From the NCBI GenBank assembly GCA_024998625.1, contig JACOEL010000020.1, positions 1-64,000 of the forward strand: a stretch of 64,000 nucleotides of DNA. Direction: 5' to 3'. A program made the position numbers and the translations under genes. The notes beneath the pieces were generated by a model that was not told the DNA's origin, ran no database searches, and saw nothing but the letters and a program-made list of their open reading frames with translations. The stretch is from Nitrospira sp. GTDB taxonomy: Bacteria > Nitrospirota > Nitrospiria > Nitrospirales > Nitrospiraceae. Positions 41,207-52,850 of this stretch are shown piece after piece (the stretch's first letter is position 1; every line of letters starts with the position of its first letter).

Positions 41207-42991
41207 TTAGAGGACCTTACCCTTCTTCTTGTTGGCTCGGCGGGTCAACATCCACCCTTCCAAAAACACCACGCCAACTGCAATAACCGCTGGGTAAATG
41301 TACACTTCCTGCGGAATCGGAGGCTGCAAGATCGTATAGTAGAAGGCCGAAACGGCCATCTTCCGTCCCGCATCTCCGTTGTGTCCATCCCAGGCAAAGA
41401 AGACCATCGGAATGTACTTACCGATATCGAACCTGGTGTATTCATCATAATCATCCTTGTCGCCCTTAAGCGGACGGGAGATCATGACAGTCCACTGGCC
41501 GTTTTTCCACTCTGACTTCAACAATTTAACTTTTTCTTCGAAGTCATCACGTTCTTCAAAGTCCTGATCCCAACCAGTTCCCTTAAAGGACCGGAGAGAA
41601 CCATCCGCCTCCCACTTCAGAATGTCAGCGTTGAACTTCGCATCTCCCCACAAATATCGTGGCTTGAATGGAGCAGGAATCTCCTGCCACTTGATGGGGA
41701 ACTGGAATGCAACACCATCGTTATAGACGGCATAGTTGTTCTGAGCAGCAGCAATTGACCCTTCTTCTCCGGTCTTAGGCGCTTGCTCCTTCACACCAAA
41801 GTTCTCAACATTGACTTGAGTAGGCGCCCAAGGAAGTTTCCCCTCTGCGACACTCTTCGTCCGATCATCCCACTGGATGAGGTAAACAACATTCTTGTCG
41901 TTGTACAGCGACTTCACCCAAATGTCATCGATACGATTGACGAAGTTACGAGGCTTGTGGGTGATTTGCCCCCCCATGGCCACATAACGACGGCCCTGCT
42001 TCTTCCACATCTCATTCTCGGGGTCGTTCGAAATTTCACCCTCGACCGGAGCAGAAGGAATCACGAAGTTGATCTTCGGCTTGTCGGTCAGAGGATCGAT
42101 GCCGAGGGGCTTGCCCTCCTCATCGCGCTCGCATAACGAATTAACGAAGTTCGCAATGTTCCAGCGATCTTCGACTGACGTACTATCCGCAAAGGATGGC
42201 ATTGGCGTCCCGTTTACACCCGTGGAAAACGTACGGAAAATATTCCGTACATTGTAGGGATCTTGTCGGCTTCCGCGGAAATTCCAACACTTGTGCCAGT
42301 TGGCCGGCTGAATCGAAAAGCCCCAGTCATCTTTCAGATTGAAAGCGTTACCGTCCCCACGCCCCTCAACACCGTGGCACTCGATACACTTCTTGTCCAC
42401 AATCAACTGGGCGCCCTTCTTGATACTATCCTCGGTCGCCTCAGCAGGCTTAATAGTTCCAAGTTGAAGAATCGTCTGTGTCTCAGACTGCTTGTCTGTA
42501 AACTTTCTGTCCTTGACCAACTGCGTCGTGACAAAGGACAGAACTTGGATTCGTTGTTCCTCGGTCAAGATACCTTCCCACGGCGGCATCGCTGATCCAG
42601 GAAGACCGTGCGTGACCGTGTCAAACAAGTCATTCTTGCCTGAATCAGGAGTCTTTTCATTGTAATTAAACAGTGGCAACTCTCCACTCGCCGTATGGCG
42701 AATTTTGAAGGTACCCTGGTTGAAGTTGCGCGGCCGTGGCCACAAACGATCGGCACCTGGCCCGTCACCTGCACCGTCCACACCATGACACCAGACACAC
42801 TTGGTGAAATAGACTCGCTTACCTGCTTCGATCATCTCGGCTGGAGGAGCAGGCGCCAGCTCCCCCTTGGCAAAGCCTTCCGGAAGATCTCCAGCATGAC
42901 CCAATCCCACCGTACTTGCGGAGAGGATAAGGGCACCCAAGGCTGCTCCGATAATCGGGGTCGCCTTTACGTTCATACGAAGTTTGCTCAT
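41207..42991 (-). CDS. diheme cytochrome c fused to EB_dh heme b domain, membrane-anchored
   Basis: The 594-residue protein has a signal peptide, two c-type heme sites (CVWCH at 65-69, CIECH at 202-206), an EB_dh-type domain at about 330-555, and a C-terminal helix (VYIYPAVIAVGVVFLEGWML) followed by RRANKKKGK. The EB_dh part keeps WDDRTKS, the WTVMISRPL strand and the Lys near its end, but where the paralogues have FFCMG or FQCMG it reads YLWGD. The Met heme ligand therefore appears to be absent. It is the last gene of oxidase operon I and is probably the electron entry to the oxidase. Confidence 0.82.
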   Translation of the reverse strand: MSKLRMNVKATPIIGAALGALILSASTVGLGHAGDLPEGFAKGELAPAPPAEMIEAGKRVYFTKCVWCHGVDGAGDGPGADRLWPRPRNFNQGTFKIRHTASGELPLFNYNEKTPDSGKNDLFDTVTHGLPGSAMPPWEGILTEEQRIQVLSFVTTQLVKDRKFTDKQSETQTILQLGTIKPAEATEDSIKKGAQLIVDKKCIECHGVEGRGDGNAFNLKDDWGFSIQPANWHKCWNFRGSRQDPYNVRNIFRTFSTGVNGTPMPSFADSTSVEDRWNIANFVNSLCERDEEGKPLGIDPLTDKPKINFVIPSAPVEGEISNDPENEMWKKQGRRYVAMGGQITHKPRNFVNRIDDIWVKSLYNDKNVVYLIQWDDRTKSVAEGKLPWAPTQVNVENFGVKEQAPKTGEEGSIAAAQNNYAVYNDGVAFQFPIKWQEIPAPFKPRYLWGDAKFNADILKWEADGSLRSFKGTGWDQDFEERDDFEEKVKLLKSEWKNGQWTVMISRPLKGDKDDYDEYTRFDIGKYIPMVFFAWDGHNGDAGRKMAVSAFYYTILQPPIPQEVYIYPAVIAVGVVFLEGWMLTRRANKKKGKVL

Positions 42992-43038
42992 TGTTAACCT
43001 CACCACCTGTTCTCCCAGGTTGTTTGTAAGATTCAGGA

Positions 43039-44076
43039 TTAGTCCCATGTCCGAGGATAGTATCCCGTGTGCCAGTATTCGAACAGGATCACCTTCCAAA
43101 TTTCATCCGTGGTCAGGTGCTGTTCCCATGGTGGCATAACAGAGGCCCAAGGGAATCCTTCGTTCGGCAAACCAATTCCGCCCTTAGCCACCCGCCAAAA
43201 AATGAAGGTTTCCTGCAACTGCGCAATCGTTCCCGGATCTGTGAAGTTCGCAGGAATCGGGTTGAAGGCAAAGGCATGGAGACCGCGACCGTTAAGATTG
43301 TCACCATGGCAGAAGTGACAGTTCTGGAAGAAAATTTCTCCTCCTTCGCGGACATACTTCAGGTACCCCTCAGCCTTTTCATCCCATGGGTTAGCATTGG
43401 GGGCCATCAGTCTTCCCATGCCCTGCTCGACGATCAGCTTATTGCTGTATGCTTGATCGTACTTACCCTCAAGATTGACCCTGTATGGATTCTGGGAAGT
43501 TTGCAAGGTGTAGGTCTTGCCATGCACCTTCGTGCTGGCAGGCGGTGCTGGATGCACCGTACGCAACTCAATCGGCTCATCCACACTTGGCTTCATGGTC
43601 AAGAATGAGAAACCGCCAATGAGCAATGGCAGCAGAATCAAGTACATCGTGCGTAGCGCTTTGTGGAAGCCGGTGTTGGCATCCAAGACATTGAGAATCG
43701 GCTGACGAAATTTCTTCCAATCCTCTTCATTGGCTGAGACCCACATGAAAACGGCTACAAACGACACGGTTCCGTACATGGCACGAACGCTGAATGGGAT
43801 CGGCGGATAGATACGGAACTTCAGATAGGTTTGGATAAAGACCCAAAACAACACACCCTGCCAGAACCGAGGGAATGCAATTCCCATGGAATTGGCCAGA
43901 TAACTCAGGCCGGTGAAACCAGCCACGAAGACGGCTAGCTCACTCAGTACCTGCATGGGCATGTAGCCCTCAACGAGCCTGACGGTGTTCGAGGGAATCA
44001 CTCCGAAGATCATTCCGATCAACATGAGCAGTCCCAGGACGCCGATCAATGCCCCGACTGACATTAATGCTTTCAT
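43039..44076 (-). CDS. membrane-bound monoheme cytochrome c
   Basis: The 345-residue protein has about five N-terminal membrane helices in residues 1-165, then a periplasmic cytochrome c domain with CHFCH at 253-257 and a distal Met in SVMPPWEQHL. MPPWE also occurs in the first heme domain of its neighbour. It sits between the two other cytochrome genes of oxidase operon I, with gaps of 47-48 bp. The role is as an electron carrier of the oxidase complex; no name is recognised. Confidence 0.8.
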   Translation of the reverse strand: MKALMSVGALIGVLGLLMLIGMIFGVIPSNTVRLVEGYMPMQVLSELAVFVAGFTGLSYLANSMGIAFPRFWQGVLFWVFIQTYLKFRIYPPIPFSVRAMYGTVSFVAVFMWVSANEEDWKKFRQPILNVLDANTGFHKALRTMYLILLPLLIGGFSFLTMKPSVDEPIELRTVHPAPPASTKVHGKTYTLQTSQNPYRVNLEGKYDQAYSNKLIVEQGMGRLMAPNANPWDEKAEGYLKYVREGGEIFFQNCHFCHGDNLNGRGLHAFAFNPIPANFTDPGTIAQLQETFIFWRVAKGGIGLPNEGFPWASVMPPWEQHLTTDEIWKVILFEYWHTGYYPRTWD

Positions 44077-44124: not shown

Positions 44125-45444
44125 CTAGGAGGCCTTGGGTGGCTCTTTCCCCTCCTGCACCTGCGAGAGGTAATCTACAAGTTTCTTGAGCGCGCCAGCG
44201 CTGAGCTTCTGACCGAACACCTTAGGCATGGTGTTATCGGGGAATCCTTTCACAACATACGCACTAGGCTCGACAATGGACTCCATAATGTAGTCAGGAA
44301 CGCTCTTCGCCTTCCCTTTGTAATCCTTGTCTTTAATGCGTAATGGAGCATTCGTTCCCTCGACCAACTTCGGACCAATCGTGCCGGTCGCTCCGGCGAT
44401 TCCAGGAATCGTATGGCACGCGACGCATTGTCCTTTTGCAAAAATCTGATCGACTGGCTCGGTTCCGTCCGCCATCAGCGCTGATGCACCACCACCGGCA
44501 GCCTTGTCACCCTCTGTGGGTGGTTTCGGACGGTCGGATTCTGGAATAAACTTCTCATACGACTTCACAATTTCGTCGAAGCTCGGAGCGTCTCTTCCCT
44601 CACGCACATAAAGCCAGGTGTCGACCGCCGCTAACTCGGGCAACGACAAGGAAATCGGTGGCTTATGAATAGAAGGCATCGGGCTGACCTTGTCATTGGT
44701 ACCCTTCACACCGTAACCAGCCACCACGAAACAGCTCGGGCATGCATGGGACTCAGCAATGTATTCCTGAGCATTCTCGGCCGTTCCTGACCCAGGAAAT
44801 GCTTCCTTTTGATCGGAATCGCGAGCAGCAGCGTTACCCTTATGATAGCGAGGATCTTCAATCTGGGTTCCTGCACGCTCTGGGAGTCCATCTAAGTTTG
44901 GTGCGCGCTCGCCCAACATACCCTTGTGGAAAGCATGGCAGAGCGGACACTGACCCTTGCCGATGGCTCCCTGAACCTTATTCTGACCGACGCCGCCAAA
45001 AATGATCTTCTCACCTTCGTCAGCCAACTCTGTTTGGGGCATGTTGCTGAAATCTTTCTTCTCCTCGATCGGCGGAAATCCACCTTCTACCTGAGGCAAC
45101 CAATTACCATACCCAGAGAGGGCCGCAGCGATAAAAAACATGAATCCGCCGATTTTTAGCAAGGCGCTGATATTTGTAAAGTACAGCGCCATCATGAATG
45201 TCATTGAGGTAATCAAAACCAACGAAACCGGCAAAAGCCTCGACTCTTCAAAGAAATTCATCTTGTAGTTGGCGATAGCCATGAAAAGAAGGATAGCGCC
45301 GATAATGCCGATGAATGTCTTAAACACCGCCCGTTTGTTTGCAACAGGATCTGAAATAGAGGCCTTAAAATAAAACATTAGGCCCACCAGGATCCCTAAT
45401 GCAGGCCAGCCCATCCCTAAGGCCGCTTTAATGAGTTCAATCAC
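44125..45444 (-). CDS. membrane-anchored cytochrome c with two heme sites and one degenerate site
   Basis: The 439-residue protein has four N-terminal helices and a periplasmic part with c-heme sites CPLCH (166-170) and CVACH (340-344). Between them is CPSCF (235-239), a heme site whose His is replaced by Phe. The last domain ends with the Met ligand region GFPDNTMPKVFG. It follows the oxidase subunit gene by 87 bp. Whether the CPSC pair binds something else, such as copper, is unknown. Confidence 0.8.
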   Translation of the reverse strand: MIELIKAALGMGWPALGILVGLMFYFKASISDPVANKRAVFKTFIGIIGAILLFMAIANYKMNFFEESRLLPVSLVLITSMTFMMALYFTNISALLKIGGFMFFIAAALSGYGNWLPQVEGGFPPIEEKKDFSNMPQTELADEGEKIIFGGVGQNKVQGAIGKGQCPLCHAFHKGMLGERAPNLDGLPERAGTQIEDPRYHKGNAAARDSDQKEAFPGSGTAENAQEYIAESHACPSCFVVAGYGVKGTNDKVSPMPSIHKPPISLSLPELAAVDTWLYVREGRDAPSFDEIVKSYEKFIPESDRPKPPTEGDKAAGGGASALMADGTEPVDQIFAKGQCVACHTIPGIAGATGTIGPKLVEGTNAPLRIKDKDYKGKAKSVPDYIMESIVEPSAYVVKGFPDNTMPKVFGQKLSAGALKKLVDYLSQVQEGKEPPKAS

Positions 45445-45531: not shown

Positions 45532-47451
45532 TTAGTGACCAACTGCCGGCGCTGCCGCCCTTCCAGGCACAGCTGCCTTTGCCTCGACTGGTGCCTTCTT
45601 GGCAGCAAGGGCTCCCAACCAAAACACGAACATAATTGAAATCCAGAAGAACAGTACGTTGGCTGAAATCATGTTCGCAGCAAATCCAACCGTGTGCGTA
45701 TAGGCCCAGGGTGAATTGTCGCGCATGATTTCATTGACGTGCCAGAACAGTCTAACCGATGACCGGATGTAACCCATCAGTCCCATCATCCACGTAAAAG
45801 CGGTGGCCAACATAATGAGCGCGTATTGAGACCGGGCAGAAATCTTGCCCCACTCGATCGGCCCCATCTGCTTGGCACCCTTCATCATGACGCTGTTAAG
45901 CGCAAACATAAAGAACAGGCACGACAACGTGGTGGCCACCTGCGGGACAGACAAGCCAACGCGTACGTTGGCCGGAATGTAGTAACCGTACACAGCCAAC
46001 ATAATAATATTGAGATAGGCGAAGAAGAAGAAACATCCCATGAAGATGTTGCCAAACTTCGACCATGACACCGTCGAAACCTTATTGCCTCGCATGTACC
46101 ACACGAAGCTCAAAACGGTTGTTGTGATAATCACGTTAATGCCGCCGTTCTTGGCCGACATAACCCCGTAATTACCGAGTACCGGGTGCTGCTGACCACC
46201 CATGGCCTTCAACTCAGCCGGAGTCATGACGATGGTATGCGGAGTGATAAAAACCAGAAATCCGCAGGTCAACAAGAACACGAGATACTTAATGTAACGT
46301 TGATATTTTTCCGCGCCGCGCATCCGTCCGAGAGCTTGCCAGAGATAGTAATTCGTGCTCAGGAAGAGAATGCCGATCATGGTGGCCTGAATGATGAACA
46401 GCCAAGCCAACAATCCGCCCATCAGCGTAATGCCCATCTGCTGCCGATAGGCATAGACTTCGCGCATCAACCAGTACCCGGCGAACGGCAACGGAATCAA
46501 GAAGGCGACGCCGAGAGCCATGGCAATGTAGCCCATCCAATCATAGTGGGCGCGCTCCTCATCGGTCTTGGCCGACAAGAATCGGTAGGCTGAGTAGGCC
46601 GCCACGACACCACCACCGAAGGCCATGTTGCCTAGGATGCGATGGAGATTGAGGGGGTTCCACAAGGCCGTATGTATCACGTGCCAAATGTTACCAAGAT
46701 AGCGACCCTGCTCATCAACGCCAGCAGGAGACATCATGAAGCCGATCCATGAATTCGCCAAGAACATCAAGATCGTACCGATGACGTTCAGTACGACGGA
46801 CATACTGAGGTGAATCCACTTCAGCAGCCCCTCCTTCATCTTGTCCCAGCCATAATAGTAAATATAGAGGGTTCCGCTTTCGGCCACGAACATCAATGCA
46901 TAGATATGCATGACCGGCCTAAAGATACCCGAGAGATACTGGAAGAAGGCTGGATAGAGTGTCAGGAAGGTAAAGATGAGAATTCCGCCCAAAATGGCCG
47001 TCAGAGAGTAGGCCGTCAGACTGATCTTAATAAAGTCATAGGCCAGCTGATCATACCGCTTAGCCATCGCCTTATCCTTGGTCACGACCCCCATAAATTC
47101 GATGACCATACAGAAAATAGGGACAGCCAAGACGAAGCTACCATAATAAAGGTGCTGCTGGTTGGCAAACCAGAGCAGGACGCGACTCTCGAAGTTGTAT
47201 CGCGGATAGTCCTTCTCGCTGTCCGTTGTCTTAGGGGCCGGCGGGCCCGAGACAATCCCTTCCGTTTTGTAGTAAACGTCCTTACCCTTCTCAACCTTTG
47301 CGTCACCACCCTCTTTCTTCACGCCGGCAGCAGGAGCGCCACCGTCGCTAGCAAGGGCAGGGATCGCAACCAGAATAGGCAAGAGGAGGAGGCCGATCAT
47401 CGCGCCCAGCGCCATGATCGACATCAACTTCGTGCGGGTTACAGAGCCCAT
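45532..47451 (-). CDS. cytochrome bd-like terminal oxidase subunit I, copy I
   Basis: The 639-residue protein has about 14 membrane helices and an N-terminal signal. It is distantly related to CydA; Nitrospira genomes carry these as their candidate terminal oxidases. Conserved His and Trp clusters include NIWHVIHTALWNPLNLHRIL, YYLWQALGRMRG, GNYGVMSAKNGG and FWHVNEIMRDNSPWAYTHTV. The quinol-loop features of true CydA are not evident, so electrons may come from the linked c cytochromes. AAGGAGG precedes the ATG. It is 35% or more identical by eye to the copy at 51-53 kb. Confidence 0.85.
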   Translation of the reverse strand: MGSVTRTKLMSIMALGAMIGLLLLPILVAIPALASDGGAPAAGVKKEGGDAKVEKGKDVYYKTEGIVSGPPAPKTTDSEKDYPRYNFESRVLLWFANQQHLYYGSFVLAVPIFCMVIEFMGVVTKDKAMAKRYDQLAYDFIKISLTAYSLTAILGGILIFTFLTLYPAFFQYLSGIFRPVMHIYALMFVAESGTLYIYYYGWDKMKEGLLKWIHLSMSVVLNVIGTILMFLANSWIGFMMSPAGVDEQGRYLGNIWHVIHTALWNPLNLHRILGNMAFGGGVVAAYSAYRFLSAKTDEERAHYDWMGYIAMALGVAFLIPLPFAGYWLMREVYAYRQQMGITLMGGLLAWLFIIQATMIGILFLSTNYYLWQALGRMRGAEKYQRYIKYLVFLLTCGFLVFITPHTIVMTPAELKAMGGQQHPVLGNYGVMSAKNGGINVIITTTVLSFVWYMRGNKVSTVSWSKFGNIFMGCFFFFAYLNIIMLAVYGYYIPANVRVGLSVPQVATTLSCLFFMFALNSVMMKGAKQMGPIEWGKISARSQYALIMLATAFTWMMGLMGYIRSSVRLFWHVNEIMRDNSPWAYTHTVGFAANMISANVLFFWISIMFVFWLGALAAKKAPVEAKAAVPGRAAAPAVGH

Positions 47452-47515: not shown

Positions 47516-47638
47516 TTACTTTCGAAGGAGATACCAAAAGTCCAAACCCTGCGCATCCATCAGAAAATGATCGACCGCTGCGAAAAACGAGACGCAGATC
47601 ACCACAGAGACGACGACATACACAATTGTTTGGCCCAT
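47516..47638 (-). CDS. 40-residue membrane protein upstream of oxidase I
   Basis: A short gene starting MGQTIVYVVVSVVICVSFFA with one membrane helix and a tail DFWYLLRK. GAGGGGGG lies six bases before the ATG. It is 65 bp from the oxidase gene and follows another small gene, so it is probably a single-helix subunit of the oxidase, comparable in size to the CydX or CcoQ-type small subunits. I do not recognise the family. Confidence 0.6.
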   Translation of the reverse strand: MGQTIVYVVVSVVICVSFFAAVDHFLMDAQGLDFWYLLRK

Positions 47639-47688
47639 CTCAAACCCCCCTCAACGTGATAAACAATTCCCCAGGCCAGAATACCGGA

Positions 47689-47805
47689 TCAGCAAGGGCA
47701 CTGAATCCCGCCGAACCAATAAAAAAACCAAAGACTGACTGCACAGGTGATGTAGAAAATCATTTTGCCGATCTTAACTTGGACGTCATCCTGAGCAGCT
47801 TCCAT
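47689..47805 (-). CDS. 38-residue membrane protein, first gene of oxidase operon I
   Basis: A short gene starting MEAAQDDVQVKIGKMIFYIT with one membrane helix and an aromatic tail SLWFFYWFGGIQCPC. GGGGGA precedes the ATG at fair spacing. It stands 50 bp before the 40-residue gene on the same strand, and both lead to the oxidase gene. The C-terminal CPC is unusual and could bind a metal or form a thioether (speculative). Confidence 0.55.
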   Translation of the reverse strand: MEAAQDDVQVKIGKMIFYITCAVSLWFFYWFGGIQCPC

Positions 47806-47841
47806 CTTGATTCCCCCAACGGTTTAAGTACGTATTTTGAA

Positions 47842-47867
47842 TTGACACACCAACTACGCTGTGTTAA
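47842..47867. promoter_or_regulatory. inverted repeat in the divergent oxidase promoter region
   Basis: TTGACACA (47842-47849) and TGTGTTAA (47860-47867) form an 8-bp inverted repeat with one mismatch, separated by 10 bp. TTGACA here is also 17 bp from TAATCA, a possible -35/-10 pair for the plus-strand small gene. It lies midway between two divergent genes and could be a regulator site for both. Confidence 0.45.
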
Positions 47868-47906
47868 TCAAAATCCCTCACGCACATGATTTTTAAAGGG
47901 ATTTTT

Positions 47907-48011
47907 ATGGCTAAAAATTCAAAAGTGTTCGACATTATAGTTTTGGCTGGAATGGTTGTCAATATCATTTTGGCCGTGTTTCTGATCCTCTACTACTTCG
48001 ATTTTCTATAA
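47907..48011 (+). CDS. 34-residue membrane protein divergent from oxidase operon I
   Basis: A short gene starting MAKNSKVFDIIVLAGMVVNI, then a continuous hydrophobic helix and ending in YYFDFL. AAGGG is seven bases before the ATG and a possible promoter lies upstream. Its last 47 bp overlap, in antisense, the 3' end of the sulfatase-modifying-factor-like gene, which lowers confidence. It may be another small oxidase-associated protein. Confidence 0.45.
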   Translation: MAKNSKVFDIIVLAGMVVNIILAVFLILYYFDFL

Positions 48012-48918
48012 CTTTCTCCTGCGCCACACCTCCAGACGACCGGCCATTCTCTGCACTTGATTGAGCGCAACGAAAGCCGATGGTTTCGTCCCGAAAATCC
48101 AGCATCATCTTGCTGCGCGCGGTAATGCGTAAATCAGATCCCGAACTGGTATACGCAGCCCCGCGCAGCACCTTATAAGTTCCGTATTCAGGACTTTCCG
48201 GATTGCGCTCTGACGCCGCGGCATAGGCCCCCTCAAGGTACCAATCGTTCACCCATTCCATAACATTGCCCGCACCATCCATGACACCATAGGGACTGGC
48301 GTCACTCTTCACACGCCCCACCGGTGCCGCCACTTCAAATCCATCGTCCACTCGAGCCCAATTCGCCGCATTCGGCACTTCCACGTTTCCCCATGGCCAC
48401 AGACGACCATCGGGCCCGCGCATGGCCTTCTCCCACTCCGCCTCAGAGGGCAACCGCCTTCCGCGCCACTCGCAATAGGCTTTCGCATCTTCCCAGGAGA
48501 CATAGACCGCAGGCTGATTCACGCCTCGCATACGCAGCGTATTTTTCGCATACCGTGAGGGCGGGCCAGACTTTCGATGCCCCGTTGCCTTCACAAACGC
48601 AGCATATTGCGCATTAGTCACCTCGTAGCGATCAATCAGAAACTGGTCGAGGTAAATCGTCCGCTCAGGCTGCTCATCGAACCCGCCCCGATTGGTCCCG
48701 AGCACAAACGGACCCGCAGGAATGACAACCATCTCCTCATCAAGCGGCTCCTCGGAAGAAATCGACTCGAGATTCGCCCCCTCCTGATCCTGCTCCGCAT
48801 GCTGGGGTTCAGCTTCAAACGGCGTCGAGACCGTCCCGCGAAGAATCGCAATGATGGGCAAGCTGGCGGCAAACAGTACCACCAGAAGAAAAATCACTTT
48901 GAATCGCGTTTCGAGCAT
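47965..48918 (-). CDS. membrane-anchored sulfatase-modifying-factor-like protein, copy 1
   Basis: The 317-residue protein has an N-terminal helix (VIFLLVVLFAASLPIIAILR) and one FGE-sulfatase (SUMF1) domain: VVIPAGPFVLGTNRG, YEVTNAQYAAFV, VSWEDAKAYCEWRGRRLPSE, SPYGVMDGAGNVMEWVNDW and YKVLRGAAY. After VLRG, where true formylglycine-generating enzymes have the catalytic cysteines, the sequence reads AAYTSSGSDLRITAR, with none. It is thus probably a binding fold, not an FGE. It is the last gene of oxidase operon II. Confidence 0.8.
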   Translation of the reverse strand: MLETRFKVIFLLVVLFAASLPIIAILRGTVSTPFEAEPQHAEQDQEGANLESISSEEPLDEEMVVIPAGPFVLGTNRGGFDEQPERTIYLDQFLIDRYEVTNAQYAAFVKATGHRKSGPPSRYAKNTLRMRGVNQPAVYVSWEDAKAYCEWRGRRLPSEAEWEKAMRGPDGRLWPWGNVEVPNAANWARVDDGFEVAAPVGRVKSDASPYGVMDGAGNVMEWVNDWYLEGAYAAASERNPESPEYGTYKVLRGAAYTSSGSDLRITARSKMMLDFRDETIGFRCAQSSAENGRSSGGVAQEKVIENRSSRGSETRPK

Positions 48919-50981: not shown

Positions 50982-52850
50982 TTATCCCTCGTGAGACGGA
51001 GACGGCAGAAAGCCTGCTTCCTTCTCCGCACTCACATCTTCATGCATCACCGGCTGCTGCCCGCGCTGACAGACCCAGAACAGGAAAAATACCGCCCCCC
51101 AAAACAGGGCCATGTTGATCGTGACCATTTTTGCGGCAAATCCAAGCGAGGGCGTAAACGCCCAGGGAGACGTATCCGGCATCAACTCGTTGACATGCCA
51201 GGCCAACCGGCCGGAAGAACGAATATACCCCATCAATCCCATCACCCAGGTAAACGCCGCCGCCAACCCGAACAAACCCACCATTCCGCGAACCGAAATC
51301 TGGCCCCACTGCACAGGACCATGGATCGTTGCACCACGCAACATACGCCGGTTCAGCAACAAACCCAGCGTGACCACGAGCAGCGTGGTGACGGCCTGCG
51401 GACCGGACAGCCCGACGCGAAGACTGGCGGGAAGATAAAATCCATAGACCGATAAGCCGATGATGTGCGCCGTTCCGAGGCCGAACAATGCCCCCACGAT
51501 GACATTCCCTGCTTTCACCCAGGAGATTGTCATCGTCCGATTTGCGCGTCGATAAAAAATATAACTCAAGGCAGTGATGCAGATCATCACGTTGACCGCG
51601 CCGTTCTTCGACGACATGACACCGTAGTTTCCAATGACCGGATGCTGCGCCCCGCCCATGGCTTTGACCTCCGTCCCGGTCATCAAAATGGTGTGAGGCG
51701 TCAGCCAGATAAACAGACAACCCGTCAGCGCGAGCAGGAGATATTGATAGTAGGGCTGATAGCGCTCCCCACCGCGAATACGCCCCATGCTCTGCCAGAG
51801 ATAATAATTGACGCCGAGAAAGAGGGCGCCGATCAACAGCGCCTGCACCACAAAGAGCCAGGTCAGCAACCCGCCCATCATCGTGACACCCATGCTCTGA
51901 CTGTATGCATAGACGGAACGCATCAGCCAATAACCGGCGAACGGCATCGGTAATAGGGCGCAGACGGTCACAAACAAGAACACGTAGCCGACCCAATCGT
52001 AATAAGCCCGTTCTTCCTGACTCTTGCTGGAGAAGAACCGATAACAGGCGTAGGCCAGGACGACCGCACCACCCGACATGATGTCCGCGAGGAATCGATG
52101 CAGATTCAGGGGATTCCAGAGCGCCGAGCGGAGCAGATGCCAGGGATTCCCCAAATACCGTCCCTGTCCGTCGACGCCGGACGGCGCCATCATGAACGCG
52201 GACCAGGCGTTGGCCAATAACAGCAGCGACGTGCCGAACACCACCGCAAGCACACCGATCGACAGATGGACCCACTTCGATCCCGGCGCTGCCATCCGAT
52301 CCCAACTGTAGTAGTACGCGATCGTCAGAAAGGTCGTCCCGACAAACACCAGCGCATAGAGGGGCATCATGACCTTGAAGGTGCCTCCCATGTACTGCAT
52401 AAAGCTGGGGTACAGCGTGATGAACATCATCAGCATCACGCTCCCCACCGCTGCGGTCACGGAAAGCGCGAGCAGCGCCACCTTCAACAGATCTTGCGCC
52501 AACCCGTCATAACGCACGGCCATCGCGGGATTCCTCGCGACCAACCCCAGAAATTCCAAGAGGACGCAAAAGATCGGTAGGGCCAGGACAAAACCACCGA
52601 AGTAGGTATGCTGCTGGATGATAAACCACATCAGCAACCGGCTATCGAGTGACCCGACTTGCGGATAGTGATTCTCATTCGCCGTCGGCGCCGAAGGACC
52701 GTCCGGAACTCCAGGCGTATGGAAATACACATCTGCGGAGGGGTCGGCGGCCACCAGCGATGGCGGACTCAGCAGCAGAACACTCGCGGCCACTAGCAGC
52801 CCGCACAGCAACAACAGGATCACGGACGGAAGCGGAAGGCGTTTAATCAT
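50982..52850 (-). CDS. cytochrome bd-like terminal oxidase subunit I, copy II
   Basis: The 622-residue polytopic protein is a close relative of the one at 45-47 kb, with the same motif order: signal segment, YFHTPGVPDGPSAP, IIQQHTYFGGFVLALPIFC, NPWHLLRSALWNPLNLHRFL, GNYGVMSSKNGAVNV and LAWHVNELMPDTSPWAF. It has no c cytochrome partners beside it. Instead it starts within the last codons of a membrane protein gene (ATGA overlap at 52847-52850) in an operon with methyltransferase, DUF420 and PCP_red genes. It is probably an alternative oxidase used under other conditions. Confidence 0.84.
   Translation of the reverse strand: MIKRLPLPSVILLLLCGLLVAASVLLLSPPSLVAADPSADVYFHTPGVPDGPSAPTANENHYPQVGSLDSRLLMWFIIQQHTYFGGFVLALPIFCVLLEFLGLVARNPAMAVRYDGLAQDLLKVALLALSVTAAVGSVMLMMFITLYPSFMQYMGGTFKVMMPLYALVFVGTTFLTIAYYYSWDRMAAPGSKWVHLSIGVLAVVFGTSLLLLANAWSAFMMAPSGVDGQGRYLGNPWHLLRSALWNPLNLHRFLADIMSGGAVVLAYACYRFFSSKSQEERAYYDWVGYVFLFVTVCALLPMPFAGYWLMRSVYAYSQSMGVTMMGGLLTWLFVVQALLIGALFLGVNYYLWQSMGRIRGGERYQPYYQYLLLALTGCLFIWLTPHTILMTGTEVKAMGGAQHPVIGNYGVMSSKNGAVNVMICITALSYIFYRRANRTMTISWVKAGNVIVGALFGLGTAHIIGLSVYGFYLPASLRVGLSGPQAVTTLLVVTLGLLLNRRMLRGATIHGPVQWGQISVRGMVGLFGLAAAFTWVMGLMGYIRSSGRLAWHVNELMPDTSPWAFTPSLGFAAKMVTINMALFWGAVFFLFWVCQRGQQPVMHEDVSAEKEAGFLPSPSHEG

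Follow-up and report, generated by a model that had tools for sequence, protein, structure and literature searches.

Respiration in Nitrospira, comammox members among them, depends centrally on bd-like enzymes, which may act as oxidases or in reverse electron transport. CcoQ and CcoM, short single-helix subunits of the cbb3 oxidases, aid assembly or stability. The small proteins of canonical cytochrome bd oxidases are CydX, CydY and CydZ, of which CydX has 37 amino acids and the motif YxxWxxGx15E/D (PMC4325964). The bd-like oxidases of the group that includes bd-like_3 are described as having 14 helices, with helices in place of the Q-loop, and as lacking the quinol ligands (PMC3578206). In the published nomenclature, bd-like_3 shares its cluster with two c-type cytochromes and an alternative NxrC (PMC6606698), and the presumed terminal oxidase is another protein, bd-like_2/NIDE0901 or an OR-N1/OR-N2 pair (PMC6606698, PMC12342949). 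Here, we analyse three very small genes beside a bd-like oxidase gene in a window of 64,000 nucleotides (the whole stretch of Nitrospira DNA that was analysed) and denote them A40, B38 and C34. The features of the locus are as follows.

41207-43099, minus strand: alternative NxrC-like protein with cytochrome c domains (PF00034) and an EB_dh domain (PF09459); start approximate
43039-44076, minus strand: membrane-bound cytochrome c protein of the cluster (PF13442/PF00034)
44125-45444, minus strand: cytochrome c protein of the cluster (PF00034)
45532-47451, minus strand: bd-like oxidase (bd-like_3), 639 amino acids, PF01654
47516-47638, minus strand: A40, single-helix protein of 40 amino acids, MGQTIVYVVVSVVICVSFFAAVDHFLMDAQGLDFWYLLRK, with a core D..LM..QGL kept to phylum level
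47689-47805, minus strand: B38, single-helix protein of 38 amino acids, MEAAQDDVQVKIGKMIFYITCAVSLWFFYWFGGIQCPC, with a C-terminal CPC (often a terminal His outside Nitrospirales)
47842-47870, plus strand: putative C34 promoter, TTGACA-N17-TAATCA, with a TGn extended -10
47907-48011, plus strand: C34, single-helix protein of 34 amino acids, MAKNSKVFDIIVLAGMVVNIILAVFLILYYFDFL, divergent and holding the antisense operon promoter
47934-47962, minus strand: predicted sigma-70 promoter with perfect consensus, TTGACA-N17-TATAAT, embedded in the C34 frame and directed at B38-A40-oxidase

The three genes occupy 47516-48011. The preliminary description had recognized here two minus-strand genes of 38 and 40 codons, with ribosome binding sites, ahead of a bd-like oxidase gene and a divergent gene of 34 codons, each of the three encoding a single helix, and our analysis bears out the coordinates, the lengths and these attributes. 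Each protein has one hydrophobic segment, and each start is preceded by a purine-rich stretch resembling a ribosome binding site (GAGGGGGG for A40, GGGGGA for B38 and AAAGGGA for C34). B38 is separated from A40 by 50 nt and A40 from the 639-amino-acid oxidase gene by 64 nt; the starts of C34 and B38 lie 101 nt apart on opposite strands. By the positive-inside rule, B38 and C34 look N-in/C-out and A40 is ambiguous. Codon 1 of C34 is ATG in 64 of 68 loci and GTG in three, and the extra upstream residues of a longer, 41-amino-acid open reading frame vary without conservation; we therefore favour the 34-codon start. C34 and an open reading frame with an FGE-sulfatase domain (47965-48918, minus strand) share roughly 47 nt at their 3′ ends, in a tail-to-tail overlap (47965-48011 in the window) whose extent differs among relatives.

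Chance produces many open reading frames this short (178 with a length of 25 amino acids or more overlap the surrounding 14-kb stretch), so conservation, not size, is the deciding test. Profile searches detected A40 in 209 of 236 Nitrospirales genomes (146 of the 154 near-complete ones) and C34 in 213 of 236 (150 of 154), nearly always as a single copy; for B38, the distribution derives from 74 loci plus 49 additional genomes. At least four of the near-complete genomes without A40 (G033, G035, G082 and G135) also have no full oxidase locus in the assembly, which in G082 and G135 ends inside that locus. Among the 74 loci with an orthologous oxidase, A40 and B38 are present in 72 and C34 in 71: L056 and L057 have none of the three genes, and L015 lacks C34 alone because its contig stops before the C34 position. 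Within the genus, pN/pS is 0.079 for A40 (pS 0.48, pN 0.038), 0.123 for B38 (pS 0.51, pN 0.062) and 0.000 for C34 (pS 0.19, pN 0.000); other reading frames give values of about 1 or more in most cases and contain stops. The genes had been put forward with the caveat that the frames might be unconserved, or interrupted by stops, in relatives, and they proved to be conserved (pN/pS 0.00-0.12). Judged by these substitution patterns, A40, B38 and C34 are shown to be genuine protein-coding genes under strong purifying selection. Neither they nor the members of their broad families (A, B and C) matched a family in Pfam or NCBIfam, the comparison with PDB chains returned chance-level matches only, and the literature searched contained no mention of them that we could find. 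They are best read as three new families of single-helix micro-proteins.

The 639-amino-acid neighbour scores 73.4 bits against PF01654 (cut-off 26.2, E 1.7e-20), and its candidate haem ligands, H100, H214, H270, H405 and H571, are invariant across the OR-N set; by this score and these conserved candidate histidines it is a member of the cytochrome bd subunit I superfamily. It corresponds to bd-like_3 of N. moscoviensis, and its paralogue a few genes away (50982-52850) to bd-like_4. The bd-like_3 assignment follows from the make-up of the cluster: a pair of cytochromes c, one cytochrome c/EB_dh protein and the nearby paralogue. The partner had earlier been named simply as the Nitrospira bd-like oxidase; it is indeed bd-like, but it is bd-like_3, not the presumed terminal oxidase bd-like_2. 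An AlphaFold2 model of the oxidase (14 sequences) had a mean pLDDT of 45, too poor for seeking docking surfaces. In the class Nitrospiria, the locus also contains two conserved genes for membrane-anchored proteins with FGE-sulfatase domains (PF03781; 47965-49844 in the window, and L241-L247); outside Nitrospirales they lie between C and B. Some Nitrospirales carry second bd-like_3 copies (L231-L236, L239 and L240; 75-78% identical), which form one group in the tree. The flanks of these copies, of bd-like_4, of bd-like_1/2 and of the anammox homologues were searched for A, B and C, and none was found beside them.

The hexamers of the site within C34 match the sigma-70 consensus at 12/12 positions; no other perfect site occurs in the 64 kb, shuffled sequences gave none, and the predicted transcription start lies at about 47927. 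All 12 bases are retained in 68 of 68 loci (families f1, f2 and f4) at constant position and spacing, and the promoter is missing only from the basal f3 loci of Nitrospirales. It fixes codons 10-11 of C34 (ATT ATA) and most of codons 17-19. In neighbouring genes, ATA makes up 6 of the 421 Ile codons (1.4%); C34 codon 11 is ATA in 68 of 68 loci, and third positions of C34 are invariant at 4 of 4 sites inside the hexamers versus 4 of 31 elsewhere. The site thus combines the -35/-10 consensus and 17-nt spacing of a sigma-70 promoter with conservation exceeding coding constraint. Outside the promoter codons, C34 has a pS of 0.55 and a pN of 0.08 over three families (pN/pS 0.15), with no nonsynonymous changes in the genus. 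The sequences show that B, A and the oxidase share a strand downstream of a consensus promoter, which lies antisense within C34 in three of four Nitrospirales families; this predicted promoter probably drives the operon of the complex. In the other orders of Nitrospiria, a near-perfect promoter for B (10-12/12, 17-nt spacer) lies between C and B, outside C34, which suggests that the embedded position is derived in Nitrospirales. The putative promoter of C34 itself (predicted transcription start at about 47877) has a TTGACA that is invariant in 29 of 29 aligned loci and a conserved TGnTA. The two promoters stand face-to-face, and their predicted transcripts would overlap by about 50 nt across the C34 ribosome site. 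This promoter-in-gene arrangement is an unusual element of the locus.

The other orders of class Nitrospiria keep B and A, in unchanged order, ahead of the oxidase (59-67% identical); C is present in 16 of 16 genomes and, in the seven loci examined at that distance, lies 2-3 kb upstream. In f15 and f20, two families of outgroup Nitrospirota, the oxidase is 48-52% identical and C-B-A-oxidase form a row on a single strand, a run seen in three outgroup genomes. Across Nitrospirales, the other Nitrospiria and these outgroups, the B-A-oxidase order is fixed, with short gaps. The Nitrospinota-type genomes have an oxidase (62% identical) without A, B or C beside it; this oxidase (L201-L209) branches inside class Nitrospiria in the tree, which suggests horizontal transfer of the oxidase gene. 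In 9 of 9 of these genomes, a C|B-A cassette stands away from the oxidase (L340:6446-6962, L341:8183-8694 and seven further loci, L342-L348). In L340 and L341, the two loci inspected in detail, a terminator-like hairpin directly follows B-A, and the L340 cassette adjoins a gene of the DUF420 family, which is linked to oxidase assembly. Nitrospinota-type loci also contain a second C34-like, single-helix open reading frame of 37 amino acids (MDYKFTYSKFFNIIFHVGVAFNVILVTWLYLIFFEII; L172:1749-1862 and L165:1801-1914, both minus strand, L166, L177, L184 and L196), situated in L172 and L165 between an arginyl-tRNA-protein transferase-like gene and a leucine-rich-repeat gene.

Searches of eight anammox genomes and of nine Nitrospirota genomes with only distant bd-like clades (f29+) gave no convincing match to A, B or C; the few hits there, which lie in long frames and reach an E of about 0.01 at best, were discounted. 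The three are present in all Nitrospiria, in Nitrospirota of f15/f20/f21 and in the nine Nitrospinota-type genomes, all of which have an oxidase of the bd-like_3 clade. By these profile matches, A, B and C are shown to occur only in genomes with a bd-like_3-clade oxidase among those tested, and, given their absence from anammox and the distant clades, their presence follows that clade exactly in this set. They adjoin the oxidase in the examined Nitrospirota loci with intact contigs, except at extra oxidase copies, and are separate from it in Nitrospinota. Of 71 Nitrospirales loci, 67 encode a B38 with a C-terminal CPC (47689-47699 in the window); B ends in VHH in the basal family f3 and often in a His outside Nitrospirales. 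In Nitrospinota, the His is instead on A, at the end of a Gly-rich tail in about six of nine loci. The C-terminal Cys/His of B, or the His of Nitrospinota A, might be a metal or haem ligand.

We consider it fairly probable that A40, B38 and C34 are supernumerary subunits of a complex comprising bd-like_3 (OR-N type, CydA-like), two c-type cytochromes and the alternative NxrC. This reading rests on the order-wide presence of the genes, their low pN/pS, the fixed B-A-oxidase order, the conserved promoters and the co-occurrence with the bd-like_3 large subunit, which was found throughout the genomes tested. The role of the small proteins would be structural and possibly cofactor-supporting, each adding one helix and taking the place of the CydX/CydH-type peptides or of CydB in ordinary bd oxidases. 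The strong promoter inside C34 would support high-level transcription of B-A-oxidase, and the opposing promoter of C34 may tune C34 relative to the operon via the roughly 50-nt transcript overlap. Two observations weigh against the subunit reading: the second bd-like_3 copies and bd-like_4 have no adjacent A, B or C, so the genes would have to act in trans or be dispensable there; and C|B-A is separate from a 62%-identical oxidase in Nitrospinota, an assembly-factor role also being possible. As a bolder and tentative proposal, which may possibly hold, one 34-codon micro-subunit gene would double, through its opposite strand, as the perfect promoter of its partner operon, the face-to-face promoters would set the stoichiometry of the complex by antisense overlap, and the peptides would form a module able to act in trans that supplies the bd-like enzyme with a metal or haem ligand, a C-terminal Cys/His.

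The main rival to the subunit reading is that the three are dedicated assembly or cofactor-insertion peptides, delivering haem or metal and lying outside the finished enzyme. The separate Nitrospinota cassette, next to the DUF420 gene in L340, agrees with this, as does the resemblance of the ends of B (CPC or His) and A (the Gly-rich tail with His) to metal ligands. In most lineages, however, the genes are co-operonic with structural genes behind one strong promoter, and the near-invariant C34 helix across the whole order suggests a fixed packing partner; we regard an assembly role as unlikely. It seems decidedly improbable that the proteins belong to another membrane complex of Nitrospiria and Nitrospinota, with the oxidase merely a genetic neighbour in Nitrospirota: the decoupling in Nitrospinota and the divergent, distant C of other Nitrospiria would accord with such an arrangement, but outgroup Nitrospirota whose sole OR-N protein is of the bd-like_3 clade have C-B-A directly before it, and the distribution tracks that clade exactly among the genomes tested.

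Two further readings concern single parts of the locus. Because they are short and directly precede the oxidase gene on its strand, A40 and B38 could be regulatory leader peptides (attenuators) of that gene. The stand-alone Nitrospinota cassette contradicts this, since A and B lie away from the oxidase in 9/9 genomes and the B-A unit has its own terminator-like hairpin in L340 and L341; conservation of individual residues in two phyla, together with fixed hydrophobic helices, would also be atypical of leader peptides, and we hold this reading to be very improbable. It is scarcely credible that C34 is not a protein and that its apparent conservation is merely that of the embedded promoter. The 12 invariant bases do fix five codons wholly or partly, but the codon statistics outside them contradict this view, a homologous protein exists where the promoter sits elsewhere, and C34 has its own conserved putative promoter.

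As conserved helices without annotation, A40, B38 and C34 give proteomics, cryo-EM and multimer modelling specific targets; their sequences are needed in search databases, as they will otherwise be overlooked. The promoter within C34, whose 12 bases are the same in 68 of 68 loci, is a clear example from nature of one sequence with two jobs. Compared with the known systems, the three resemble CydX, CydY and CydZ as tiny single-helix proteins that are encoded in an operon with a CydA-type protein, are easily missed by gene callers and are tied in their presence to one CydA clade; at 34-40 amino acids with one hydrophobic segment each, they fall within the size range of CydX (under 50 amino acids, one membrane helix). 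The preliminary description had taken them for unrecorded small subunits of the bd-like oxidase, on the model of CydX; unrecorded small genes tied to the oxidase they are, but membership of the CydX family fails on profile, motif and gene order. No CydX-type Pfam or NCBIfam profile matched them or the members of their broad families, the motif YxxWxxGx15E/D (PMC4325964) is absent from representatives of all three families, and CydX lies downstream of cydB, whereas no CydB gene was found near A, B or C, the genes after the oxidase encoding the cytochromes c and the alternative NxrC. Unlike CydX, they are three different proteins without sequence relation to it, encoded upstream of the oxidase, one of them divergently. 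The partners differ too, theirs reportedly having neither the Q-loop nor the quinol site of a canonical bd oxidase (PMC3578206). CcoQ and CcoM are similar as short single-helix proteins but have no detectable homology to A, B or C and belong to another enzyme class. The closest known counterparts of the large neighbour, by its PF01654 domain and conserved His ligands, are the OR-N type CydA or bd-like oxidases of Nitrospirota and Nitrospinota, as these are described in the accessible text of three papers (PMC12342949, PMC10839748, PMC6606698). Small subunits go unmentioned in those portions, and A, B and C would extend the known composition of these enzymes.
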